From Paracidovorax citrulli (GTDB lineage: Bacteria > Pseudomonadota > Gammaproteobacteria > Burkholderiales > Burkholderiaceae_C): a stretch of DNA of 64,000 nucleotides. Location of the stretch: contig NZ_FNEY01000008.1 of the NCBI RefSeq assembly GCF_900100305.1, positions 62,001 through 126,000 on the forward strand, given 5' to 3'. Position 1 is the stretch's first letter. The number at the start of each line of letters is the position of its first letter. A model generated the notes under the pieces. It made no database searches, was not told the DNA's origin, and was given only the letters and a program-made list of their open reading frames with translations. A program made the position numbers and the translations under genes. Shown one piece after another: positions 19,600-30,346 of this stretch.

Positions 19600-20403
19600 A
19601 TGGAAACGATCGACGGTAATGGGGACATGCGGCCCCTGGCGGTGGTGACGGGAGCGTCGTCCGGTATCGGCCTGGAACTGGCACGGTGTGCCGCGCGGGG
19701 CGGTTACGACCTCGTGCTGGCGGCGGACACCCCGCTCAACGGTGCCGCCGACGCCTTGCGCGCCGAAGGCGCGGAGGTCGAGTTCATCCAGGTGGACCTG
19801 GCCACGGCCGAAGGGCTGGAAAAGCTCTGGGCGGTCATTGGCGACCGCATGGTGCATGCGCTCATGGCCAATGCGGGCCACGGCCTGGGCGGGGCCTTCC
19901 TGGACCAGCCTTTTGCCGATGTGCGCCACGTGATCGACACCAACGTGACCGGTACCGTATGGCTGGTGCAGCGCGTGGCGCAGCGCATGTGCGCGGCCGG
20001 CCGGGGACGCATCCTCATCACCGGTTCGATTGCCGGCTTCCTGCCCGGCAGCTTCCAGGCCGTGTACAACGGGACCAAGGCGTTCGTCGATTCGTTCGCG
20101 GCCGCGCTGCGCGACGAGCTGCAGGACTGCGGGGTGACGGTGACCTGCCTGATGCCGGGAGTGACCGATACCGCATTCTTCGAGCGGGCGGGCATGCTGG
20201 ACACGAAGTTCGGCACCCAGTCCGGCAAGTCCGATCCGGCCGAGGTGGCGCGAACGGGCTACGCGGCGATGGAGGCCGGCGAGGCGGATGTGGTGGTGGG
20301 GCTGGGCAACAAGCTGCAGGTGGCCCTGGCGAAGGTGACCCCCTCCCAGCTGGTCGCGGCGCAGCACCGGAAAATGGCCGAGCCCGGCACGGCCGACCGC
20401 TAG
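19600..20403 (+). CDS. Short-chain dehydrogenase/reductase
   Basis: This classical SDR of 267 residues has the NAD(P)-binding TGASSGIG motif near residue 18, NAG in LMANAGHG, the catalytic Ser in ITGSIAG and YNGTK as the YxxxK pair. The substrate is unknown. In other proteobacteria an SDR of this type is found beside the amine oxidase/DUF1365/CFA genes controlled by the RpoE-ChrR singlet-oxygen system, and here it lies beside the same genes, convergent with cfa. That makes a link to lipid modification plausible. I see no copy of the shared sigma motif in front of it, so co-regulation is unproven. Confidence 0.85.
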   Translation: METIDGNGDMRPLAVVTGASSGIGLELARCAARGGYDLVLAADTPLNGAADALRAEGAEVEFIQVDLATAEGLEKLWAVIGDRMVHALMANAGHGLGGAFLDQPFADVRHVIDTNVTGTVWLVQRVAQRMCAAGRGRILITGSIAGFLPGSFQAVYNGTKAFVDSFAAALRDELQDCGVTVTCLMPGVTDTAFFERAGMLDTKFGTQSGKSDPAEVARTGYAAMEAGEADVVVGLGNKLQVALAKVTPSQLVAAQHRKMAEPGTADR

Positions 20404-20443
20404 CGGCCGCGGCAGTGCCCCCGGAGCGGCGCGGGCAGGCCGC

Positions 20444-21727
20444 TCAACTGCCGGCGTGCTCGAGGGTGTAGAGGCCCACGTCGATGTGCCCCGTGCGGAA
20501 GCCGGCTTCGCAATAGCACAGGTAGTATTCCCAGAGCCTGCGGAACGGCTCATCGAAGCCCAGCGGCTCGATGGACGGCCAGGCGGACTGGAAGCGCTGG
20601 CGCCAGTACGCCAGGGTTTTGGCGTAGTCGGGGCCGAAGGTCTCGCTCGAGCGGATGCGCAGGCCTGCGCCCGCGGCCTGGCTGGCAAGCACCGAAGGCG
20701 AAGGCAGCATGCCGCCCGGGAAGATATACCGCTGGATGAAGTCCGCGCCCGAACGGTAGTGCTCGAAATGGCGGTCGGCGATGGTGATCACCTGGAGTAC
20801 GGCGCGCCCGCCCGGCCGCAGGCGGTCGCGCAGGGTTGCGAAGTAGGTGGGCCAGTAGGATTCGCCGACGGCCTCCAGCATCTCGATGGAGACGATGTGG
20901 TCGAAGGTGCCGGGCACGTCCCGGTAGTCCTGCAGCCGCAATTCCACGGCGTCCTGCAGCCCCGCCTGCCGGATGCGTTCCCGGGCGAATCGCAGTTGCT
21001 CCGCGGACAGGGTGATGCCCGTCACCCGGGCACCCCGCTGCGCCATGTCCTGGGCCAGGGCGCCCCAGCCGCAGCCGATTTCCAGCACGTCGTCGCCGGG
21101 CTCGAGTGCCAGGTGCTGCGCGATGCGTTCCAGCTTGACGGCCTGGGCTTCCTCGAGCGATTCCGTCCCCGTGGGATAGATCGCGCTGGAGTAGAGCATC
21201 GACGGGTCCAGCCACTGCGCGTAGAAGTCGTTGCCCAGGTCGTAGTGGAAGGCGATGTTGCGCCGGCTACCGCCGCGCGTGTTGAAGCGCAGCAGATGGC
21301 GCAGCCTGCCGGCCCAGCGCGCGGGCCAGCCGCCTTCGGTGGCGCGGCTCCAGGGGACCTCGTTGCGGCTGCCGCACTCCAGCAGGGCCGTGAGGTCCGG
21401 CGTGGACCATTCACCCTGGCGGTATCCCTCCGCCAGGCCGAGGTCGCCCCCGGCCAGCAGCCGCCACACGGGCTTCCACCCGTGCAGGACCATGGCCGCC
21501 TGCGGCCCGGGCTCTGCGCCGGCGCCATGCAGGACCCTGCCATCCGGCAGGTGCACCGAGAGCGACCCGCAGGCCATGCAGGAGAGCAGCCGGCGCAGCA
21601 GGAGTTCGAAGGGGCGTTGCAGCCAGGGCCTGCCGGCGGGTCGCCGCGCATGGGGCAGGTGGTGGGCGGTGGATTCCGTGGACAGGCCGCTCGCGGCCTT
21701 CGTGGGCGAGGTGGAAGAGGGCGTCAT
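20444..21727 (-). CDS. cfa: Cyclopropane-fatty-acyl-phospholipid synthase
   Basis: The enzyme transfers a methylene group from SAM to double bonds of membrane phospholipid acyl chains. The 427-residue protein has the NIAFHYDLGNDFYAQWLD segment, the SAM-binding VLEIGCGWGAL motif, IVSIEMLEAVGE, and YIFPGGMLPS near the active site. The start at 21727 overlaps the stop of the DUF1365 gene (ATGA); the frame stays open far upstream, but that part overlaps DUF1365 and is not coding. It is the third gene of the operon amine oxidase-DUF1365-cfa, driven from the ECF-type promoter at 23945-23973. Confidence 0.93.
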   Translation of the reverse strand: MTPSSTSPTKAASGLSTESTAHHLPHARRPAGRPWLQRPFELLLRRLLSCMACGSLSVHLPDGRVLHGAGAEPGPQAAMVLHGWKPVWRLLAGGDLGLAEGYRQGEWSTPDLTALLECGSRNEVPWSRATEGGWPARWAGRLRHLLRFNTRGGSRRNIAFHYDLGNDFYAQWLDPSMLYSSAIYPTGTESLEEAQAVKLERIAQHLALEPGDDVLEIGCGWGALAQDMAQRGARVTGITLSAEQLRFARERIRQAGLQDAVELRLQDYRDVPGTFDHIVSIEMLEAVGESYWPTYFATLRDRLRPGGRAVLQVITIADRHFEHYRSGADFIQRYIFPGGMLPSPSVLASQAAGAGLRIRSSETFGPDYAKTLAYWRQRFQSAWPSIEPLGFDEPFRRLWEYYLCYCEAGFRTGHIDVGLYTLEHAGS

Positions 21728-22539
21728 GTTTCTTCGGGGCGGATGACGGTGAGGTGCCGTGCGGGGGCCGGCGGCTTGGCATGGACTTTCGCGCCCTTGA
21801 GCCAGATCTGCAGCGCTTCCCAGTGGATGGCGCCCATCACCTTCAGCGTGAGCAGGGGATGCGTGAAGAAGGCGCGGGCGAGCGCGCCGTCCGTCAGGGG
21901 ACGCAGGCGCAGCCGCCATGCCGCGTGGAGCACGGGGCCGGCGGCGTCGCTGGCCGTCACGCCGAGCGACAGCCCATCGCCGGGGACCTGCGGGCGCCGC
22001 AGGTCGAACGCGTAGCGCAGGGACAGGGGCAGGAAGGGCGAGACATGGAAGGACTTGTCGCATCCATGGCGCTGCCGCGTGCCGTGCGCCTGCGCACCGG
22101 GCACCGCCACGAGGTAGCTGTGGCGCTCGCCGAAGGTGTTGTTCACTTCGTAGAGCACCGCGAGCAGGCCGCCGTCGGGCCGGTGGCAGGCATACACCGT
22201 GAGCGGGTTGAAGGCGTAGCCCAGGATGCGCGGCATGGTCAGCATGCGGATGGGGCCGATGCCGGTCCCGATGCCCGCCGCGGCGAGCTGGCGCTCCACG
22301 TGGCTGCGCAGGGCTTCGCCCGTGCCTGGACCGTAGTCCCGCTCGTGCAGGCTGAAGAGGTTGAACCGGTTGAGAGAGAAGAACCGCAGCCGGCGAGCCA
22401 GTTCCGGCAGTTCGTCCACGTCCAGCCAGAGGGCGTAGACGCGGTAGCGCAGGCGATGGCGTGCGGGGCGGTGGCGCTGGTGCGTGACCTCTCCGACGCA
22501 CAGGGCGCTGCCCGGCACCGGCGTGGCCGCGGGAATCAT
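21724..22539 (-). CDS. DUF1365 family protein
   Basis: The 271-residue protein belongs to DUF1365, nearly always found with a flavin amine oxidase and a CFA-type methyltransferase. It contains HRHRPARHRLRYRVYALWLD near the start, FNPLTVYACHRPDG, and KSFHVSPFLP, which carries a conserved His. The biochemical role is not established; the gene context points to modification of unsaturated acyl chains. The start overlaps the amine oxidase stop by four bases and its own stop overlaps the cfa start, so the three are translationally coupled. Confidence 0.88.
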   Translation of the reverse strand: MIPAATPVPGSALCVGEVTHQRHRPARHRLRYRVYALWLDVDELPELARRLRFFSLNRFNLFSLHERDYGPGTGEALRSHVERQLAAAGIGTGIGPIRMLTMPRILGYAFNPLTVYACHRPDGGLLAVLYEVNNTFGERHSYLVAVPGAQAHGTRQRHGCDKSFHVSPFLPLSLRYAFDLRRPQVPGDGLSLGVTASDAAGPVLHAAWRLRLRPLTDGALARAFFTHPLLTLKVMGAIHWEALQIWLKGAKVHAKPPAPARHLTVIRPEET

Positions 22540-23921
22540 GCGGAGGCTCCGGGCGCATGCGCCGGCATGCAGTGGATGCGGCCCGATGCGTTCGGCACGG
22601 ACCAGGGGCGCCGCACGCCGCCCAGGGCCTCGGCCACGGCGAGGCCTGCCTGCAGTCCGTCCTCATGGAAGCCTGCACCGAAATACGCGCCGCAGAACCA
22701 GGTGCGCCGCTGGCCCTGGAGGCTCCACAACTGCCGCTGGGCGCGCAGCGCGTCGCCGTCGAAGATGGGGTGTTCGTACGTTTGCGTGTGCAGCACGTGG
22801 CGGGGATCGGGTTCGCGGACCGGGTTCAGGGTCACGAACAGCGGCAGGTCGTCCGGGAGGTGCTGCAGCCGGTTCATCCAGTAGGTCACGCTCAGGCCGT
22901 CCGCCAGGCTGCGGTCGCTGGCGTAGTTCCAGCTGGACCAGACCGCGCGGCGGCGCGGCATCAGTGCCGGGTCGCTGTGCAGCACGGTGCGGTTGCGGCT
23001 GTAGCCGAACGCGCCCAGCCAGCGCGACTCCTCGGGCGTGGCATCGGGCAGCAGGCGCAGCGCCTGGTCGGCATGGGTCGCGATCACCACATGGTCGTGG
23101 CGGCGGGATTCCCGCGCATCGGCGGTGCGGACGTGGATGCCGCCTTCCGTGCGGCGCACCTCCACGGCGGGCCGTTCGAGCGACAGGCCGTCCTGCCCCA
23201 GGGCGGCCACGAGCTTTTCCACGTAGCGGCGGCTGCCGCCCCGTACCGTGCGCCATGCGGGCCGGTGGCCCAGGTTGAGCAACTGGTGGTTCTCGCAGAA
23301 ACGGACGAAGGACTCCGTGGGGTACTGGCCGATGCGCGCGGCGGGGGTGGACCAGATGGCCGCCGCCATGGGGTAGAGGTGGTCTTCGCGGAAGGCGCGG
23401 CCGAAGCCGCGGCGGTCCAGGTACTCATCCAGCGGCAGCAGCCCCATCTGCTGCGCGTCGCCGGGCGCGAGCCGGTAGAAGCGCACCAGGTCCCGGAGCA
23501 TGGACCAGAAGCGCGGGCGCAGCAGGTTGGCGCGCTGCGCGAACAGGCCGGACAGGCCGGAGCCGGAATACTCCAGCGCCCCGCCGTCCATGCTGACCCC
23601 GAACGACATGTCTGTGGGAACGGTTTCCACCCCGAGGTGCGCGAACAGGGCCGTGAGGTTGGGGTAGGCCGATTCGTTGTAGACGATGAAACCGGTATCG
23701 ACGGCCACGGTGCCGGAGGGGCCCGCTACCTCCACGGTGTGGCTGTGGCCGCCGGGGCGCGCATCGGCCTCGTACACGGTCACCCGGTGGCGGCTGGCCA
23801 GCAGCCAGGCTGCGGCCAGGCCGGAGATCCCGCTGCCGATGACGGCGATGTCGAGCGGGCCGTTGCGGGCTGCGCCTGCGGAGCCGCCGCCAGCGGCGGA
23901 CATGTCTGGTGTTGTTCTCAT
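22536..23921 (-). CDS. FAD-dependent amine oxidase-family protein (lipid desaturase-like)
   Basis: The 461-residue protein has an N-terminal FAD-binding Rossmann motif IAVIGSGISGLAAAWLL (about residues 25-41), a DTGFIVYNESAYPN block and a C-terminal FAD-contacting region around CGAYFGAGFHEDGLQ. This subfamily accompanies DUF1365 and CFA synthase in photo-oxidative stress regulons and is thought to oxidise acyl chains rather than amines. The ATG at 23921 is chosen because GAGGA lies just upstream; an ATG at 23903 is also possible. It is the first gene of the amine oxidase-DUF1365-cfa operon. Confidence 0.88.
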   Translation of the reverse strand: MRTTPDMSAAGGGSAGAARNGPLDIAVIGSGISGLAAAWLLASRHRVTVYEADARPGGHSHTVEVAGPSGTVAVDTGFIVYNESAYPNLTALFAHLGVETVPTDMSFGVSMDGGALEYSGSGLSGLFAQRANLLRPRFWSMLRDLVRFYRLAPGDAQQMGLLPLDEYLDRRGFGRAFREDHLYPMAAAIWSTPAARIGQYPTESFVRFCENHQLLNLGHRPAWRTVRGGSRRYVEKLVAALGQDGLSLERPAVEVRRTEGGIHVRTADARESRRHDHVVIATHADQALRLLPDATPEESRWLGAFGYSRNRTVLHSDPALMPRRRAVWSSWNYASDRSLADGLSVTYWMNRLQHLPDDLPLFVTLNPVREPDPRHVLHTQTYEHPIFDGDALRAQRQLWSLQGQRRTWFCGAYFGAGFHEDGLQAGLAVAEALGGVRRPWSVPNASGRIHCMPAHAPGASA

Positions 23922-23944
23922 TGGAGTCCTCGGATGCTGCCGTG

Positions 23945-23973
23945 CTGTACGCATCTGCCAGGCTCTTGGATTG
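23945..23973 (-). promoter_or_regulatory. ECF-sigma-type promoter of the amine oxidase-DUF1365-cfa operon
   Basis: On the minus strand GCAATCC (with CAATCC at 23973-23968) is followed after exactly 18 bases by TACAG (23949-23945), itself preceded by GCG. The same hexamer, spacing and GCGTACAG occur in front of the methyltransferase operon at 28465-28493. The predicted transcript start lies about 15-20 bases before the amine oxidase ATG, leaving room for its GAGGA ribosome site. Confidence 0.7.
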
Positions 23974-23988
23974 CGATGCCGCGGGGCG

Positions 23989-24018
23989 TGATCTAATCCA
24001 CCCATCGCTGCGTAACGG
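23989..24018 (+). promoter_or_regulatory. Probable autoregulatory ECF-sigma promoter of rpoE-chrR
   Basis: TGATCT (23989-23994) and TAACGG (24013-24018) are separated by 18 bases ending in GCG. This resembles the TGATCC-N18-TAAGA promoter known for Rhodobacter RpoE and the two other promoters of this cluster. The rpoE ATG at 24026 is so close that the mRNA would be nearly leaderless. Confidence 0.55.
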
Positions 24019-24025
24019 CAGCACC

Positions 24026-24691
24026 ATGACCATCGTCCGCAAGCCCCTGGCAGAGCAGCCTCCCGCGAGGACCGCTTCCGCTCTGCCTCCCTACCTGTCG
24101 ATTGTGTCGAAGTATCACACCGAAGGACTGCCTTCATCGCCTTCGTCGGAAGCGTGGATCGCCCTGGTGCGCGCCGTGGCCGACCACGGCGACCGGCAGG
24201 CCTTCGCGGCGCTGTTCAAGCATTTCGCCCCGCGGGTGAAGGCCTACCTGATGCGCCTCGGCCTGGCGGAGGGCGTGGCGGAAGACCTCACGCAGGAAGC
24301 GATGGTCAATCTCTGGCGCAGGGCGGGCACCTTCGACCCGGCGCATGCGGGTGTCTCCACGTGGGTGTTCACCATCGCGCGGAACCTGCGCATCGACCAT
24401 CTGCGCCGCAAGTCCAACCAGTTGTCCGAAAGCGACGACGGGCTCGACATGGCCCTGGACGACGATGGCCCCGAGGAGCTGGCCTACGCCGCCCAGTGCG
24501 AAAACGACGTGCGGCGGGCGATCGAGTCGCTCGCCCCCGAACAGGCACAGGTGCTGCGCCGCTCCTTCTTCGAGGACCAGCCCCACGCCCGGATCGCCGA
24601 GGATCTCGGCATCCCGCTGGGGACCGTGAAATCCCGCGTGCGCCTGGCCGTACGCCACCTGCGCCGCCTGCTCGGCGCCCATGCGCCATGA
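24026..24691 (+). CDS. rpoE: ECF sigma factor, RpoE/ChrR type
   Basis: This group IV sigma factor resembles the singlet-oxygen-responsive RpoE of Rhodobacter and is held inactive by the ChrR encoded next to it. Of 221 residues, region 2 spans about 55-130 (FAALFKHFAPRVKAYL, then DLTQEAMVNLWRRA and RNLRIDHLRRK). Region 4 spans about 160-215, with SLAPEQAQVLRRSFFEDQPH and IPLGTVKSRVRLAVRHLRRL. The stop overlaps the chrR ATG. The start is uncertain: ATG 24026 is nearly on top of the predicted promoter, and an in-frame GTG at 24104 still precedes region 2. Confidence 0.92.
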   Translation: MTIVRKPLAEQPPARTASALPPYLSIVSKYHTEGLPSSPSSEAWIALVRAVADHGDRQAFAALFKHFAPRVKAYLMRLGLAEGVAEDLTQEAMVNLWRRAGTFDPAHAGVSTWVFTIARNLRIDHLRRKSNQLSESDDGLDMALDDDGPEELAYAAQCENDVRRAIESLAPEQAQVLRRSFFEDQPHARIAEDLGIPLGTVKSRVRLAVRHLRRLLGAHAP

Positions 24692-25359
24692 CGATCCATC
24701 ATCATCCCGGAGATGACCTGCTCCTCGACCTGGCCGCGGGGCGGCTGCCGCCGGGGCCGGCGCTGCTGGCTTCGGTGCATGCCGAGATGTGCCCGCAGTG
24801 CGGGCAGCGCCTGAGGGCCCTGGAGGCCGCCGGCGGCGTTCTGCTGGAATCCCTGCCGCCAGAGACGCTGAGGCCCGACGCGCTTTCCCGCGTGCTGGGG
24901 GCCATCGATGCCCTTCCCGGGGACGATGCTCGCCGGCCGGGTGCGGCTGCCGAGCCGGTAGCTGGCGGCCCTGACTGGCCTGCGGGAACACCGTGGCCGC
25001 AAGCGCTGCGCGGCGTCGCGTTTTCGCCCTGGAAATGGATCGCCCCGGGCATGCGCTGGAGCCGCCCCCTCTCGCCGCCGGCCGGCGACGTGAACGTGTT
25101 CCTGCTGCGCATCGGCCCCGGCCGCAGCCTGCCTGCCCATACCCACGGCGGTTTGGAATGGACGCAGGTGCTGCACGGCGCCTTCCATGACGGACACGCG
25201 TTGTTCGGCGCGGGGGATTTCGATGCCGCCGATGGCAACGTGCATCACCAGCCGGTGGTGCAAGGGCCGGGAGACTGCATCTGCCTGGCGGCCGTCGATG
25301 GCCGCCTGCGCTTCGACGGAATGCTGGCGCGGCTGGCGGGCAGCCTGGTGGGCATGTAG
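24688..25359 (+). CDS. chrR: Anti-sigma factor ChrR (zinc-binding, cupin domain)
   Basis: ChrR binds and inhibits the ECF sigma factor and releases it on singlet oxygen or related stress. The 223-residue protein has the N-terminal zinc anti-sigma domain, with an early His in MTIHHHPGDD and HAEMCPQC (HxxxCxxC) near residues 30-38. A C-terminal cupin domain follows, with metal-ligand candidates in PAHTHGGLEWTQVL. Both parts needed for binding and for signal sensing look intact. It overlaps rpoE by four bases and is convergent with the DUF2177 gene. Confidence 0.92.
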   Translation: MTIHHHPGDDLLLDLAAGRLPPGPALLASVHAEMCPQCGQRLRALEAAGGVLLESLPPETLRPDALSRVLGAIDALPGDDARRPGAAAEPVAGGPDWPAGTPWPQALRGVAFSPWKWIAPGMRWSRPLSPPAGDVNVFLLRIGPGRSLPAHTHGGLEWTQVLHGAFHDGHALFGAGDFDAADGNVHHQPVVQGPGDCICLAAVDGRLRFDGMLARLAGSLVGM

Positions 25360-25391
25360 GGCCGGCCCCGGCGGGGCCAGGCCCCGGCCGT

Positions 25392-25811
25392 TCAGGCCGA
25401 TGCGGGCGGAAACCACCGCAGGATGACCGCGCAGGCGATCGCGCTGGCGGCCCCGGTGGCGACCGTTCCCCAGGCCATGTCCATGGCGGTGACGTGCCAG
25501 GGCCAGTCCCGCAGCACGGCCTGGTTGGTCAGCCCGAAGGTGGCATAGGCCAGCAGCCCGAGCGCAGCGCCCAGGCCCAGGGCCTGCTGCCAGCTTTGCT
25601 TTTCCACGCCCGGCACGACGGCGAAAAACACCATGCCCGCCACGTACAGCAGGTAGAACACCACCGCGGGGGCGAACGAGACGCCTTCCTGCATGAGGTG
25701 CCCGATGTTGGGACGGTACAGGCGCTGGGCCATGGTGCCGAGCCACACGGAATCCAGCGCGAGGAAGGCGAGGGCGGTGGCGGCGTAGGCGATGGCGTAG
25801 GTGCGTGGCAT
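25392..25811 (-). CDS. DUF2177 family membrane protein
   Basis: The 139-residue product has four predicted membrane segments. It begins MPRTYAIAYAATALAFLALD and has DSVWLG, YVAGMVFFAVVPG and YATFGLTNQAVLRDWP, the landmarks of DUF2177. Members are common in ChrR-type sigma regulons; their biochemical role is unknown. It ends the operon methyltransferase-DUF1295-DUF6134-DUF2177, 62 bases after the preceding gene. Its frame continues upstream without a stop, but the ATG at 25811 is the natural start. Confidence 0.85.
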   Translation of the reverse strand: MPRTYAIAYAATALAFLALDSVWLGTMAQRLYRPNIGHLMQEGVSFAPAVVFYLLYVAGMVFFAVVPGVEKQSWQQALGLGAALGLLAYATFGLTNQAVLRDWPWHVTAMDMAWGTVATGAASAIACAVILRWFPPASA

Positions 25812-25873
25812 GTCGGCTTTCGGAAGATGGAGGTGGAAGGGAACGGGGTGGGGCTGCGGGAGTGCGGATGCCG

Positions 25874-26521
25874 TCATGGAAGCCGGTAGCTGAGCTTGCG
25901 CCCGCCACGCACGGTGGAATCCAGCCCCACCCACTCTCCGGTGTCGGCTGCGTACCAGACGTCGATGGGGTTGCGGGGCCCGGTGATGCGCCAGCGCGTT
26001 GCCGCGCGGGGCTGGCCGCGCACGGTGATGGAGCCGTCTTCCTCGCGGGATATCTGCACCGGCTCGAGCTTCCCGGTCTGCGGGTCCAGCAGTTGCCGGG
26101 ATTCCAGGATGGCCGGATTCCAATAGGCGAAGCTGCGCGTGCAGGGGCCGTCCGGCGGGAATTCCTGGCGCACCGTGCTGCGGTCGCCGTCGTCGTCGGT
26201 GTCGGTCGCGATGCGCCTCAGGCAGTTGCCACGCCACTGCTCCCGGGCTTCGTGCCGGTACCGGTACACCGCGATGCCCAGCACTTTCACCGTGAAGCGT
26301 GCCGAGCTTTCCAACTGGCGGCTGCCGCCCTCCGGGGCGCCGAGCCGGAATCGGTGCTCGCCGATCGGGCTGCCGTCCAGCGACACGGCGAAGCTCCATT
26401 GCTGCTCCGTCGCGCCCTGCGCATGGGCGCCCGCCGTGGCCGCTGCCAGCAGCAGCCCGGGCCCCAGCGCCGATGCCAGCGCGACAGCCCGCAGGCGCCG
26501 GGAGCGCGCGGGCCCGTTCAC
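25874..26521 (-). CDS. DUF6134-like secreted protein
   Basis: The 215-residue product starts with a signal peptide (hydrophobic run near residues 12-30, cleavage about AHAQ). The mature part resembles proteins described as DUF6134, with WSFAVSLDGSPIGEHRFRL, VYRYRHEAREQWRGNCL and NPIDVWYA. Its function is not known; I infer a periplasmic lipid-related role from the operon. The start is a GTG at 26521 that overlaps the stop of the DUF1295 gene by four bases, so the two are coupled. Confidence 0.75.
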   Translation of the reverse strand: MNGPARSRRLRAVALASALGPGLLLAAATAGAHAQGATEQQWSFAVSLDGSPIGEHRFRLGAPEGGSRQLESSARFTVKVLGIAVYRYRHEAREQWRGNCLRRIATDTDDDGDRSTVRQEFPPDGPCTRSFAYWNPAILESRQLLDPQTGKLEPVQISREEDGSITVRGQPRAATRWRITGPRNPIDVWYAADTGEWVGLDSTVRGGRKLSYRLP

Positions 26522-27339
26522 GAGGACCTCCCGGACCGCGGCGGCATCGGGATGAAGGCGCTCGTGCGGCGCTGGTACTCGCGGTAGGCCGGCCTGCGCG
26601 AGGGCATGTCCTTTTCGAGCAGCGCCACCCCCGAGACCCGCAGGAGCAGCGTGGTCATGAGCAGGGGCGAGGCGATGCTCCAGAACGCCGGCATGCCTGC
26701 CAGGCCCAGGGCCGCCAGCCACAGGCCCCACCACACGCAGGCCTCGCCGAAGTAGTTGGGGTGCCGGGTGTAGCGCCAGAGGCCCTGGTCCATCACGCGG
26801 TCTGCTCCGCTGCCACGGCGCTTGAACCGGGCCATCTGCGCATCCCCCACGGCCTCGAACACCAGGCCGAAAACGGCCAGGGCCAGGCCGGGCAGGGCCT
26901 GCCAGGCAGGCCCCGGACGAAGAAGCGCCACCGCGGCGAAAAGAGGGGCGGATACCACCCACGCCAGCACCGCCTGCAGGCCGAAGACCAGGTACAGGCT
27001 CCTGAGCCCGAAGCGCTCGCCGTGGCGCTCCCGCATGGCCTGGTAGCGGCGGTCCTCGCCGTGGCCCCAGTTGCGCAGCGTGATGAAGACGGCGAGCCGG
27101 GCCGCCCAGGCGGCCGCCACGCCGACGGCCCACCATGCCGCGCCGCCCTCGGACGCAGGGTTCAGCCGCAGGGCATACACCACGCCGGCCCCGGCGATCA
27201 TGGGGCCCCAGACCCGGTCCACGAGGCTCGCGTCGCGGCGTGCCAGGCTGGCGGCCCAGGTGGCCAGGGCCACGCCGGCGGTCCATGCCAGGCCGCCCAG
27301 CGCGGCCTGCCAGGCGTCTGTGCCAAAGAAATCCGCCAT
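26518..27339 (-). CDS. DUF1295 family membrane protein (steroid reductase/isoprenylcysteine methyltransferase fold)
   Basis: The 273-residue protein has about six membrane segments and the C-terminal signature LWRYTRHPNYFGEACVWWG of the DUF1295/steroid 5-alpha-reductase-like family. It ends with a helix containing EKDMPSRRPAYREYQRRTSAF. Members act on lipids or isoprenoids; the substrate here is unknown. A GGGAGG ribosome site precedes the ATG at 27339. It lies 17 bases after the upstream methyltransferase gene and is coupled to the DUF6134 gene. Confidence 0.88.
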   Translation of the reverse strand: MADFFGTDAWQAALGGLAWTAGVALATWAASLARRDASLVDRVWGPMIAGAGVVYALRLNPASEGGAAWWAVGVAAAWAARLAVFITLRNWGHGEDRRYQAMRERHGERFGLRSLYLVFGLQAVLAWVVSAPLFAAVALLRPGPAWQALPGLALAVFGLVFEAVGDAQMARFKRRGSGADRVMDQGLWRYTRHPNYFGEACVWWGLWLAALGLAGMPAFWSIASPLLMTTLLLRVSGVALLEKDMPSRRPAYREYQRRTSAFIPMPPRSGRSS

Positions 27340-27356
27340 GCCGGCCTCCCGTCCCG

Positions 27357-28415
27357 TCAGGCCGCGCCGTGCGCGGGCCGCTTGTCGAACAGGTAGTGGC
27401 TGACCCACCACTGCTGGCCGTCGCCGTAGGCGAAGAGTTCCTCGACGGCCAGGAAGAAGAGACGCCAGCGGATCCACCAGGTGTCCGCCTCGTCGCCGTA
27501 CACCTGCCGGAACAGCGGCTGGAGCTCCGCGTGGTGGGCGTCCATGTTGTCCAGCCACGCCCGCGATGTCTTCGCGTAGTGGGTGCCTTCCCATCGCCAG
27601 CGCCGCGCGACGCGCAGGTCGTCCTGGCAGTGCAGTGCCAGGTCGTCGCTGGGCATCATGCCGCCCGAGAAGAAATACTCGCTCATCCAGTCGCTGGCGT
27701 CCCGGGCGACGAACGGGTAGGGGGCCTCCCGGTGGGTGAACACGTGCATGAAGAAGCGGCCGTCGTCGGCCAGCCAGCGTGCCACGTGCGAGAAGGCGCG
27801 CGGCCAGTTGCGCAGGTGCTCGAACATTTCCACCGACACGATCCGGTCGAAGCGCTCCGCGGTGTCGAAGACGTTGAAGTCGCAGGTCTGCACGCGCACG
27901 TTGCGCAGTCCCCGGAGCGCGGCCTCCGCCTCGATGTACCGGCGCTGGGAGTGCGAGTTGGAAATGGCCGTGATCGTGCTGGCCGGGTAGCGCGCCGCCA
28001 TCCACAGCGTCAGCGAGCCCCAGCCGCAGCCCAGCTCCAGGATGCGCTGGCCGTCCTGCAGGCCGGCATGCTCGCAGGTCTCGGCGAGGGCGGCCTCCTC
28101 TGCCTGCTCCAGGGTCGTGGTGCCGGCCGCCCAGAGGCAGCAGCTGTATTTGCGGTGGGGCCCAAGCACCTTGCCGAAGAATTCCGCAGGCACCTCGTAA
28201 TGCTGCTCGTTGGCTTTCTCGGGAACCAGCGCGAGCGGCGCCGAGCGGATGCGCTCCAGGAAGGCCTGGGTCTGTTCCGCCGCAGATGCCCCGTCGCCGC
28301 TGCGCAGTTCGGCGAGCCGGTCTTTCAGCAGCCGGCGGATGCCGTGCCGTACGAGCCGGTCGGGGAGCAGGCCCCGTTCGACGAGGCGGATGGCGGTGGC
28401 GGTGTTCTGCAGCAT
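27357..28415 (-). CDS. CFA-family SAM-dependent methyltransferase
   Basis: This is a second methyltransferase of the cyclopropane-synthase superfamily, 352 residues long. It has NEQHYEVPAEFFGKVLGPH in place of the classical HYDLG segment, the SAM motif ILELGCGWGSLTLWMA, VSVEMFEHLRNW and FFSGGMMPSDD. It lacks the N-terminal extension of true Cfa and resembles the type found next to DUF1295 in ChrR regulons, where methylated or furan fatty acids have been proposed as products. That role is an inference. The ATG at 28415 lies about 45 bases after the predicted transcript start. Confidence 0.88.
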   Translation of the reverse strand: MLQNTATAIRLVERGLLPDRLVRHGIRRLLKDRLAELRSGDGASAAEQTQAFLERIRSAPLALVPEKANEQHYEVPAEFFGKVLGPHRKYSCCLWAAGTTTLEQAEEAALAETCEHAGLQDGQRILELGCGWGSLTLWMAARYPASTITAISNSHSQRRYIEAEAALRGLRNVRVQTCDFNVFDTAERFDRIVSVEMFEHLRNWPRAFSHVARWLADDGRFFMHVFTHREAPYPFVARDASDWMSEYFFSGGMMPSDDLALHCQDDLRVARRWRWEGTHYAKTSRAWLDNMDAHHAELQPLFRQVYGDEADTWWIRWRLFFLAVEELFAYGDGQQWWVSHYLFDKRPAHGAA

Positions 28416-28464
28416 GCGAGGGGCTCCGGCGTGCGGCGTGCCGGATGGCCCGCCTGGTTCCGGC

Positions 28465-28493
28465 CTGTACGCGGCGGGCTCCTGTTTGGATTG
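28465..28493 (-). promoter_or_regulatory. ECF-sigma-type promoter of the methyltransferase-DUF1295-DUF6134-DUF2177 operon
   Basis: On the minus strand CAATCC (28493-28488), 18 bases, then TACAG (28469-28465), preceded by GCG. Elements and spacing are identical to the amine oxidase promoter at 23945-23973, and the spacer sequences otherwise differ, so this is unlikely to be a recent duplication. Confidence 0.7.
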
Positions 28494-28495
28494 CA

Positions 28496-28517
28496 GGACG
28501 CCGGCGTGCCGGCGTCC
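28496..28517. terminator. Perfect GC-rich inverted repeat after the LOV kinase gene
   Basis: GGACGCCGGC (28496-28505) and GCCGGCGTCC (28508-28517) are perfect complements around GT. It lies between the LOV kinase stop and the next promoter and probably helps end the kinase transcript, although there is no T-tract. Operator function is an alternative. Confidence 0.5.
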
Positions 28518-28536
28518 CGCGGCTGCCACCGCGGGT

Positions 28537-30171
28537 TCAGGTCTTGGTGCCGGTGGCGCCGTCGAGCACCATGCGCACGCGCCGTGCGAGATCCGCCAGC
28601 CGGTAGGGCTTCTTCAGGATCTCGAATTCGGTGGGCGCGACGTTGGCGAGGCTGCCCATGTCGCGGTCGAAGCCCGTGGTCAGCAGGGTATGGATGCCGG
28701 CCACCGTCTTGCGCATCTCCCGGGCCAGCTCGTAGCCGTTCAGGCCGCCGGGCATCACCACGTCGGTGAAGAGCAGGTGCGGAAGCGCGGAGGGCTCCAG
28801 GGAGCGCACGAGCTTGAGGGCCGCGTGCGCGCTGTGCGCCACGTGGACCGTGTACCCCAGGCCTTCCAGCATGGCCTGGGCGAGGTCGGCCACCTCGACG
28901 CGGTCGTCCACGACCAGCACGGTTTCCGTGCCGCCGCGCGCATGGGGGGCGAGCGATTCCACTAGTTCGGGGTGCGTGCGCCCGTGCACGGCCGGAAAGT
29001 ACATGCGCACCGTGGTGCCCACGCCGACTTCCGAATAGATCGTGACGGCACCGCCCGATTGCTTGGCGAAACCGTACACCATGGACAGCCCCAGGCCGGT
29101 ACCCTTGCCTTCTTCCTTGGTGGTGAAGAACGGGTCCATCACGCGCGGCACCATGTCGGCCGGGATGCCCGAGCCGGTATCGGTCACCGACAGGGTGGCA
29201 TAGCGGCCCGGGGGCAGGCCGGAGAAGGCATGGCCGTCCTGGGCGTGCAGCTCGATGCCGCGCGTCTCGACCCGGATGCGGCCGCCGTTGGGCATGGCAT
29301 CGCGGGAGTTGAGGAGCAGGTTGAGCACCGCCACTTCCAGTTGGGTGGTGTCCAGTTCGCAGTTGGGTACGTCGTCACCGAGCACGTAGTCGATCTCGAT
29401 CGCTTCGCCGAGCGTGCGTTCGGCCAGCGAGGCCATGCCCGTGGCCAGCGCATTCAGGCTGACGACCCGGCCCTGGAGCTTCTGCTTGCGGGAGAACGCC
29501 AGCAGTTGCTGTGTGAGCGTGGAGGCCTTGCCGACGGCGCTGCGGATGCTGTCGATGGAGCGGTCGATGTCCTCGCGACCGAGCTTCTGGCTGCGGTTGC
29601 GCACGCGCATCACGTCCAGGTGGCCGGACATGACCTGCAGCAGGTTGTTGAAGTCGTGCGAGATGCCACCGGTCAGCTGGCCGAGCGCCTCCATCTTCTG
29701 CGCCTGCGACAGCGCTTCCTCGGCGTCGCGGCGCCGGCTCACGTCGAGCTGCGAAGCGAAGAAATAGACGAGCTCGCCACGCGCGTTGTAGACCGGCGAG
29801 ATGAACAGCGCGTTCCAGAACGTGGAGCCGTCCTTGCGGTAGTTGAGCAGCTCCAGCGAGATCTCGCGCCGCTGATCGATGGCTTCGCGCAGGGCCGCGA
29901 CGGTGTTGCGGTCGGTGGCGGGGCCCTGGAGGAACCGGCAGTTGTGCCCGAGGATGTCCTGCGGCTGGTAGCCCGTCATCGCGACGAAGGCGCGGTTGCA
30001 GAACACGATGGGGTTGTCGGGCTGGCGCGGATCCGTGACCAGCATCGGCATCCGCGTGGTTTCGATGGCCGCGAAAAAGATGTCGTCCTTGTGCTCGGCG
30101 ACCTCGTTGGGAGCGCCTTCCGCGACGAAAGGACGCGCCTGGCCGGTAATGGGGGGCTTCTCGCTGCTCAT
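28537..30171 (-). CDS. LOV-domain hybrid histidine kinase (blue-light photoreceptor) with receiver domain
   Basis: The 544-residue soluble protein has three modules. A LOV/PAS domain (about 30-145) carries the flavin-binding signature GHNCRFLQG, whose Cys near residue 78 forms the light-induced FMN adduct, plus LLNYRKDGSTFWN. A histidine kinase follows, with the phospho-acceptor His in GGISHDFNNLL (about 172) and an ATPase domain with LLNSRDAMPNGG, DTGSGIP and GKGTGLGLSMVYG. The C-terminal receiver has VLVVDDRVE, Asp in LLFTDVVMPGG and the conserved Lys in LKKPYR. The architecture matches the LOV-HK-RR of Pseudomonas syringae. Its neighbour is the RpoE-ChrR cluster. Confidence 0.93.
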   Translation of the reverse strand: MSSEKPPITGQARPFVAEGAPNEVAEHKDDIFFAAIETTRMPMLVTDPRQPDNPIVFCNRAFVAMTGYQPQDILGHNCRFLQGPATDRNTVAALREAIDQRREISLELLNYRKDGSTFWNALFISPVYNARGELVYFFASQLDVSRRRDAEEALSQAQKMEALGQLTGGISHDFNNLLQVMSGHLDVMRVRNRSQKLGREDIDRSIDSIRSAVGKASTLTQQLLAFSRKQKLQGRVVSLNALATGMASLAERTLGEAIEIDYVLGDDVPNCELDTTQLEVAVLNLLLNSRDAMPNGGRIRVETRGIELHAQDGHAFSGLPPGRYATLSVTDTGSGIPADMVPRVMDPFFTTKEEGKGTGLGLSMVYGFAKQSGGAVTIYSEVGVGTTVRMYFPAVHGRTHPELVESLAPHARGGTETVLVVDDRVEVADLAQAMLEGLGYTVHVAHSAHAALKLVRSLEPSALPHLLFTDVVMPGGLNGYELAREMRKTVAGIHTLLTTGFDRDMGSLANVAPTEFEILKKPYRLADLARRVRMVLDGATGTKT

Positions 30172-30346
30172 CAGGTGGACTATACGGACAAACCAGCGGC
30201 CTGGACATTTCCCCCGGGGCGGCCGGCCTGTAGGCGCAGGCGCCGTGCGGTGCAGGTGGCGGTGGCGTCCTACGCAGCATGGTGCGACCTGCGCATGAAT
30301 GCGGGTGGCGTCCTTGCCAAGATCGGTCGGCAAAGGAGATCGGATC

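Follow-up and report, generated by a model that had tools for sequence, protein, structure and literature searches.

The locus described here is found in Paracidovorax citrulli, a plant-associated bacterium, within a stretch of 64,000 nucleotides (the window) of contig NZ_FNEY01000008.1 (C48; positions 62,001 to 126,000, forward strand) in a genome of 4.85 Mb. It is centered on a gene pair encoding an extracytoplasmic function (ECF) sigma factor, RpoE, and the anti-sigma factor ChrR, flanked by two groups of putative lipid-modification genes and, at one end, by a gene for a hybrid histidine kinase with a LOV domain (LOV-HK). The locus is probably an RpoE-ChrR (ECF11) singlet-oxygen regulon of three operons, with the LOV kinase as a neighbor outside the regulon. 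All genes that had been named in an earlier note on this DNA were confirmed by gene calls and Pfam, every domain being recovered approximately where that note had placed it. The genes and promoter sites, given by their positions in the window, are:

19600..20403, plus strand: short-chain dehydrogenase/reductase (SDR) oxidoreductase (PF00106), probably outside the regulon
20444..21727, minus strand: UfaM-type fatty-acyl methyltransferase of the cyclopropane fatty acid (CFA) synthase family, CFA1 (PF02353, 287.8 bits)
21724..22539, minus strand: UfaO-like DUF1365 protein (PF07103, 267 bits; DUF1365 is UfaO in PMC7380195)
22536..23903, minus strand: UfaD-like flavin adenine dinucleotide (FAD) desaturase/oxidase, an amine oxidase (PF01593); D-O-M order as in related loci
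23948..23973, minus strand: sigma site CAATCC-N16-CGTA of the ufaDOM operon (motif scan)
23989..24014, plus strand: sigma site TGATCT-N16-CGTA of rpoE-chrR (motif scan)
24026..24691, plus strand: ECF sigma factor RpoE (ECF11; PDB 2q1z_A, 149.6 bits)
24688..25359, plus strand: anti-sigma factor ChrR (TIGR02451, 175.5 bits, cut-off 124.5)
25392..25811, minus strand: DUF2177 membrane protein (PF09945)
25874..26521, minus strand: DUF6134 protein (PF19630)
26518..27339, minus strand: DUF1295 steroid-reductase-like membrane protein (PF06966, 210.8 bits)
27357..28415, minus strand: coclaurine-N-methyltransferase-like methyltransferase, CFA2 (PF02353, 154 bits)
28468..28493, minus strand: sigma site CAATCC-N16-CGTA of the CFA2 operon, between LOV-HK and CFA2 (motif scan)
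28537..30171, minus strand: LOV hybrid histidine kinase, LOV(PAS)-HisKA-HATPase-receiver (NF010076), with its own upstream region

Counted outward from rpoE-chrR (24026-25359), ufaD-ufaO-ufaM are located on one side, while the other side holds the genes for DUF2177, DUF6134, DUF1295 and the second CFA-family protein, followed by the LOV hybrid kinase. The sigma factor has its best PDB match in chain 2q1z_A, which we take to be RpoE (SigE) of Rhodobacter (R.) sphaeroides, with a score more than that of any other chain (70.8 bits for the next one). ChrR falls below the cut-off of a narrower equivalog, NF051881 (169 vs 300 bits); it matches PDB chain 2z2s_B (115 bits), and the alignment retains the His/Cys and cupin positions that are presumably the ligand positions of the zinc anti-sigma and cupin domains. 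Judged by sequence, the sigma factor and ChrR are, among PDB chains, closest to the solved RpoE-ChrR pair.

The promoter motif YRATCY-N16-CGTA was derived from the window itself, i.e., from the divergent rpoE/ufaD spacer and the gap before CFA2. It is found three times in the window vs 0.27 times expected (three or more matches in none of 100 shuffles), and genome-wide it yields 12 matches vs one for the reversed pattern. A Rhodobacter-style pattern, TGATC-N18-TA, gave two matches vs 1.6 expected in the window and was dropped in favor of the motif read from the window. For comparison, 23 ChrR-type and 10 other loci were chosen from Paracidovorax and from the family genomes that harbor DUF1365 (111 of 150). 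In the 23 ChrR-type loci, exact sites are found upstream of rpoE in 22/23, CFA2 in 15/18 and ufaD in 8/23 cases, and otherwise upstream of DUF2177 (4/22), DUF1295 (2/20) and a single one of 201 other genes; no exact match was seen in these loci at spacers of 14, 15, 17 or 18. When up to one mismatch is allowed, the counts are 22/23 for rpoE, 21/23 for ufaD, 17/18 for CFA2, 4/22 for DUF2177 and 2/20 for DUF1295, and for other genes 13/201 vs 11/201 in shuffled upstream regions. The site also precedes DUF1295 in L157 and L158, loci without a called CFA2; in L157, what appear to be remnants of CFA2 can be discerned by eye in the gap between LOV-HK and DUF1295.

The consensus printed for the Pseudomonas syringae RpoE-ChrR sigma factor, TGATCC-N16-CGTA, is equal to this motif (PMC5507510), and a similar sequence, TGATC-N18-CGTAT, is quoted for Vibrio cholerae, where blue light acts via ChrR (PMC5241685); here and below, statements on the literature refer to the parts of the cited papers at hand. 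Because of the promoter counts across loci and the matching P. syringae consensus, rpoE-chrR, ufaDOM and the CFA2 operon are assigned to one predicted RpoE-ChrR (ECF11) regulon. The SDR gene, which the earlier note had listed with the cluster, is probably not a member of the regulon: none of five SDR-labelled genes (0/5) is preceded by a sigma site, and the gene is patchy across Paracidovorax, being found, besides the window, in only four gene-called loci (L056, L057, L160 and L161).

The CFA, FAD amine-oxidase and DUF1365 families are found together in the window, and the trio is repeated in related loci in the order D-O-M. Certain residues of Cfa have a role in holding bicarbonate, and at these positions CFA1 differs from the other CFA protein of the genome, encoded on contig C56, by changes from Cys to Ser, Glu-His to Glu-Ala and His to Gln. 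Among CFA1-type proteins (n = 34, window included), the Ala and Gln are found in 34/34 and the Ser in 31/34. Because these active-site residues are replaced, CFA1 is read as a UfaM-type methylase, to which it appears to fit better than to a cyclopropane synthase. In R. sphaeroides, UfaM, UfaD and UfaO (DUF1365) are sufficient for formation of methylated furan fatty acids (PMC7380195), which feed back on ChrR turnover (PMC6852236). The window has in common with the RpoE-ChrR regulon of that bacterium the sigma/anti-sigma pair, the location of ufaD-ufaO beside rpoE-chrR and the presence of UfaM in the regulon (PMC7380195, PMC6852236). In contrast to R. sphaeroides, ufaM adjoins ufaD-ufaO in the window, the counterparts of RSP1087-1089 (SDR, hypothetical protein, GPH transporter) are not part of the ufaDOM operon, and the CFA2-DUF1295-DUF6134-DUF2177 operon does not appear in the examined portion of the R. 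sphaeroides regulon table (PMC7074977).

This second operon is not universal, as furan loci without it exist among Burkholderiaceae. Eight such loci (L038, L039, L041, L162-L164, L166 and L167) are composed of ufaD-O-M with no ChrR or CFA2 in the stretch taken, and harbor varying sets of glutathione peroxidase (GPX), a GPH-type transporter, DUF3833 and SDR, similar to the R. sphaeroides RSP1087-1091 set (PMC7074977). A MerR-B12 (LitR) cluster protein is found in four of the eight, as determined with one member scanned per cluster.

The earlier note had spoken of two CFA-family methyltransferases, which holds to the extent that both proteins match PF02353, but the second resembles coclaurine N-methyltransferases more closely than it does Cfa: the best PDB match of CFA2 is coclaurine N-methyltransferase 6gkv (242.5 bits), vs 108 bits for Cfa 6bqc. 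CFA2 retains the Glu-His pair. A role of CFA2 as a plain cyclopropane synthase was considered and is disfavored by these PDB scores. The structure models of its partners are of low confidence, i.e., an all-beta fold for the DUF6134 protein (mean predicted local distance difference test score, pLDDT, 55.5), which is possibly exported as judged from its N-terminus, and a mostly helical one for DUF2177 (mean pLDDT 57.2).

CFA2-like proteins are also encoded in 44 plasmid records (E<=1e-40), of which seven regions were examined (Shinella, Rhizobium CIAT894, R. leguminosarum, Caballeronia, Burkholderia anthina, Cupriavidus and Acinetobacter). In all seven, spread over alpha-, beta- and gammaproteobacteria, CFA2 adjoins DUF1295; an FAD oxidoreductase is found in seven regions, DUF1365 in six (all but Rhizobium leguminosarum), another CFA gene in four and DUF2177 in three. 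A sigma factor with an anti-sigma factor is present in five of these regions; instead, the Acinetobacter region holds a sensor kinase and a response regulator and the Cupriavidus region a TetR gene. The Acinetobacter plasmid (L186), typed as mobilizable, carries a photolyase, an acyl-CoA desaturase and a lipocalin together with the lipid cluster and the sensor kinase/response regulator pair.

In the proposed mechanism, photo-oxidation would destabilize ChrR, thereby freeing RpoE, which would then transcribe rpoE-chrR, ufaD-ufaO-ufaM and CFA2-DUF1295-DUF6134-DUF2177. UfaM would methylate a cis-unsaturated phospholipid chain, UfaD would desaturate the product and UfaO (DUF1365) would add oxygen to yield a furan fatty acid, while the enzymes of the second operon would catalyze a further methylation, and probably a reduction, of a membrane lipid.

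The LOV kinase is a full-length match to family NF010076 (PRK13557), with 878 bits vs a cut-off of 631. It has the architecture of this family, presumably that of the P. syringae LOV-HK, and differs from it just by its place beside the regulon. The LOV cysteine (GHNCRFLQG), the kinase motif HDFNN and the receiver Asp are present in the window protein, and the three corresponding motifs (LOV Cys, kinase His, receiver Asp) recur in nearly all extracted orthologs; the kinases of Paracidovorax cattleyae and Paracidovorax oryzae are 97% identical to it. LOV-HK and CFA2 are located on the same strand, separated by a gap of 121 bases that contains the sigma site of CFA2; the gap in the window also holds a possible GC-rich hairpin, which we do not claim to be a terminator. 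Shortly upstream of LOV-HK (window 30220-30245) is a CCTACA box, seen by eye also in seven of 29 related LOV-HK upstream regions (L036, L060, L123, L156, L159, L161 and L171), which belong to several separate clades. This box may be the site of some regulator of the kinase.

Membership of LOV-HK in the sigma regulon was considered and rejected, as none of 10 LOVHK-labelled genes (nine of which are true LOV-HK genes) is preceded by a sigma promoter at up to one mismatch. In L057, one motif match is found further upstream, beyond the stretch counted. Both LOV-HK and DUF1365 are found in all 17 Paracidovorax genomes; they are adjacent in 13 and separate in four. LOV-HK (E<=1e-120) is found in only 29 of 399 genomes of a family sample, compared with DUF1365 in 111 of 150 family genomes, and in eight of 399 of an order sample; 77 of the best 80 LOV-HK loci, with flanks of up to 10 kb per side, contain no rpoE, chrR, ufa or CFA2-operon gene, a few of the 77 showing distant SDR-family matches alone (29-37% identity). 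In 31 LOV-HK genomes compared outside the 13 with adjacent genes, a ufaD of 63-75% identity is present in 12, one of 46-53% in nine and none in 10; LOV-HK is close to ufaD in only one of these genomes (G056), where it borders the end of the cluster opposite to that seen in Paracidovorax.

In a tree of 54 rows, i.e., the window protein and hand-picked orthologs from which near-identical doubles and L050_13173 had been dropped, the Paracidovorax and G056 adjacencies belong to different clades, and the kinases of the four Paracidovorax genomes without adjacency branch at two additional positions; the placement of long rows, including L036 from G056, is unsure. Because these clades are separate and adjacency is rare outside the genus, the kinase and the cluster are best seen as independent units that met at least twice. 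The chance of a G056-type adjacency is approximately 0.1 (about 24 kb in a 5.5 Mb genome, multiplied by about 20 placements), and for that reason this adjacency alone is weak evidence. Nine adjacent Paracidovorax loci, among them the window, all retain the kinase at the cluster, with far-side neighbors that vary by group: a cydAB cluster in L156-L159, and either DUF421 or isochorismatase in the window and in L056, L057, L160 and L161. The kept place despite the changed flank is a mild hint of usefulness. Two further observations concern the kinase elsewhere: in G056 (L036 14842-17301) a second PAS hybrid histidine kinase is found about 1.6 kb past the LOV kinase on the opposite strand, and G068 (L050 11225-14717) holds two divergent LOV-HK copies, with the LOV Cys motif found in one alone.

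The earlier note had read the locus as an RpoE-ChrR regulon for acyl-chain modification in a non-phototroph, linked by the LOV kinase to blue light. The first part is retained. The photosynthetic reaction-center family PF00124 is found in none of the 17 genus genomes, while a Synechococcus control was matched, in agreement with a non-phototrophic host. The dedicated coupling of blue-light and singlet-oxygen sensing through LOV-HK is not supported: the kinase gene lacks a sigma site and elsewhere is mostly far from the cluster. Rare co-occurrence in relatives, which that note had itself named as a ground for refutation, is largely what was seen. It had also been suggested that LOV-HK replaces a LitR/photolyase partner. 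LitR was indeed found in none of the 17 genus genomes (L041 query, which clustered with three proteins of other loci; E<=1e-15, in a search that included no positive control genome), but photolyase is present in all 17, away from the cluster.

Light input into regulons of this type has precedents. In Pseudomonas mendocina, light-inducible genes in two regions, one of which holds ufaM, are under the control of a short LOV protein together with a LitR repressor; in Pseudomonas putida, ufaM is light-inducible via LitR homologues (PMC9758184). The P. syringae RpoE-ChrR sigma factor shows a binding peak and a site in front of PSPTO_1900-bphO-bphP, a gene set that includes one for a photoreceptor kinase (PMC5507510). 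The Pseudomonas LitR/short-LOV system (PmSB-LOV-PmlR2) resembles the present case in that a LOV photoreceptor is combined with a locus for furan fatty acids in a non-phototrophic bacterium, but there the short LOV protein binds a LitR repressor, whereas here a hybrid kinase is found next to an RpoE-ChrR regulon (PMC9758184). A photoreceptor tied to the locus across relatives, as would be expected for the Pseudomonas type, is seen only in part of Paracidovorax (13/17). Because of the Pseudomonas LOV/LitR and P. syringae bphO-bphP precedents, light input to regulons of this sort is nothing new in kind, and the light-coupling idea of the earlier note is a plausible but unproven variant of it. With UfaM, UfaD and UfaO characterized (PMC7380195), and with ufaM among the light-inducible genes for which LOV control has been published (PMC9758184), the description of the locus as an undescribed system was too strong.

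Light coupling by this particular kinase is possible but not indicated. In such a scheme, the LOV kinase would sense blue light and prime or tune the RpoE-ChrR lipid regulon, either through a phosphorelay or because transcription reads through into the CFA2 operon. The persistence of the adjacency in Paracidovorax with a changed other flank, and even without a called CFA2 in L157 and L158, speaks for this scheme, as do the separately gained adjacency in G056, the strand shared with CFA2 across a gap of 121 bases and the Pseudomonas precedents, i.e., the sigma peak before photoreceptor-kinase genes (PMC5507510) and the LOV control of ufaM (PMC9758184). We nevertheless consider it unlikely: LOV-HK lacks a sigma site, CFA2 has its own, adjacency is absent in 11 of the 12 further genomes that hold LOV-HK and a ufaD of 63-75% identity and in all but three of the 80 best LOV-HK loci, and the 20 window genes scanned include no separate DNA-binding response regulator. 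From these data we infer that the LOV kinase is a lineage-specific neighbor outside the sigma regulon.

Two further explanations concern the lipid product. Rhodopseudomonas palustris has a further methylase, FufM, which shares 26% identity with UfaM and methylates a furan fatty acid (PMC7380195). CFA2 could be its functional equivalent, in which case the second operon would finish dimethyl furan fatty acids rather than act on another lipid. The sigma promoter that CFA2 has in common with ufaDOM agrees with this proposal, as do the identities of CFA1 with CFA2 (33%) and with the CFA on C56 (39-40%), set beside those of UfaM with FufM and with RPA3082 (38%) (PMC7380195). However, FufM by itself converted the monomethyl furan to the dimethyl product (PMC7380195), which would leave DUF1295, DUF6134 and DUF2177 without a part; the proposal is conceivable, though on balance doubtful. 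If, on the other hand, the cluster made ordinary cyclopropane fatty acids as a membrane change under oxidative stress, the PF02353 matches of both methyltransferases and their usual annotation would be accounted for. This is highly improbable in view of the Glu-Ala and Gln at the Cfa active site of all CFA1-type proteins and of the separate CFA with a full active site on C56.

Several points weigh against a three-operon singlet-oxygen regulon with a neighboring LOV kinase. The motif was read from the window, and the 23 loci in which it was counted were chosen by hand, 10 of them being Paracidovorax loci and hence non-independent. The exact site precedes just eight of the 23 ufaD genes. Within the 19.5 kb taken from L149 and L150, both Paracidovorax, ufaD-O-M is accompanied neither by rpoE-chrR nor by the CFA2 operon. 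The LOV-HK of these two genomes lies elsewhere, and the sigma site at ufaD-O-M is retained. The likeness of UfaM, UfaD and UfaO to the R. sphaeroides proteins is one of family and gene order, and activation by singlet oxygen, the lipid product and expression in this bacterium are predicted from the genes. Finally, the presence of the LOV kinase beside the cluster in 13 genomes is more than a mere neighbor requires.

A parallel to the second operon is found in the green alga Chlamydomonas, for which Table 5 of PMC4067076 lists, ordered by induction, 104 genes that need SAK1 for induction by singlet oxygen, 37 of them belonging to the top 10% of induced genes. The rows include CFA1 (row 2), CFA2 (row 11), DUF1365 (row 18), DUF2177 (row 22) and DUF1295 (row 25), and the locus of the algal CFA2 is that of the coclaurine N-methyltransferase CPLD27 in Table 9; the authors link only the CFA genes to Rhodobacter (PMC4067076). 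The SAK1 set and the window thus have in common the families of UfaM, CFA2, UfaO, DUF2177 and DUF1295, matched at the level of annotation only, but the alga is a eukaryote with another regulator, and its table, in which many rows carry no annotation, has no UfaD-like or DUF6134-like annotation (PMC4067076). Among the papers listed by a literature search, which may miss those with just two of the terms, DUF1295 or DUF2177 was found only in PMC4067076. This parallel suggests that the families of the second operon, except DUF6134, form together with the UfaM- and UfaO-like genes a lipid module shared with Chlamydomonas. A broader proposal, toward which we are almost evenly disposed but which we hold to be slightly the less probable outcome, is that of a singlet-oxygen lipid module common to proteobacteria and green algae. 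Beside the furan-fatty-acid enzymes UfaM and UfaO, its second arm (a coclaurine-N-methyltransferase-like enzyme and DUF1295, often DUF2177, and in many loci of Burkholderiaceae DUF6134) would make a methylated lipid not yet described. The regulators of such a module would be interchangeable, i.e., RpoE-ChrR here and two-component or TetR regulators in some plasmid loci, and photoreceptors, the present LOV kinase among them, would occasionally be recruited to its vicinity.

How cells without chlorophyll pre-empt singlet oxygen made by light is poorly known, as are the functions of DUF1295, DUF2177 and DUF6134. The best-supported reading of the Paracidovorax locus is that of a furan-lipid singlet-oxygen regulon with a second, uncharacterized lipid operon; the claim of light coupling is weak, and the focus moves from the LOV kinase to the lipid enzymes, with the second operon as the part worth testing. 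If this operon truly belongs to the regulon, as indicated by its promoter, it would make an as yet unidentified lipid modification, seemingly used also by a green alga under the same stress, directly accessible to genetics.

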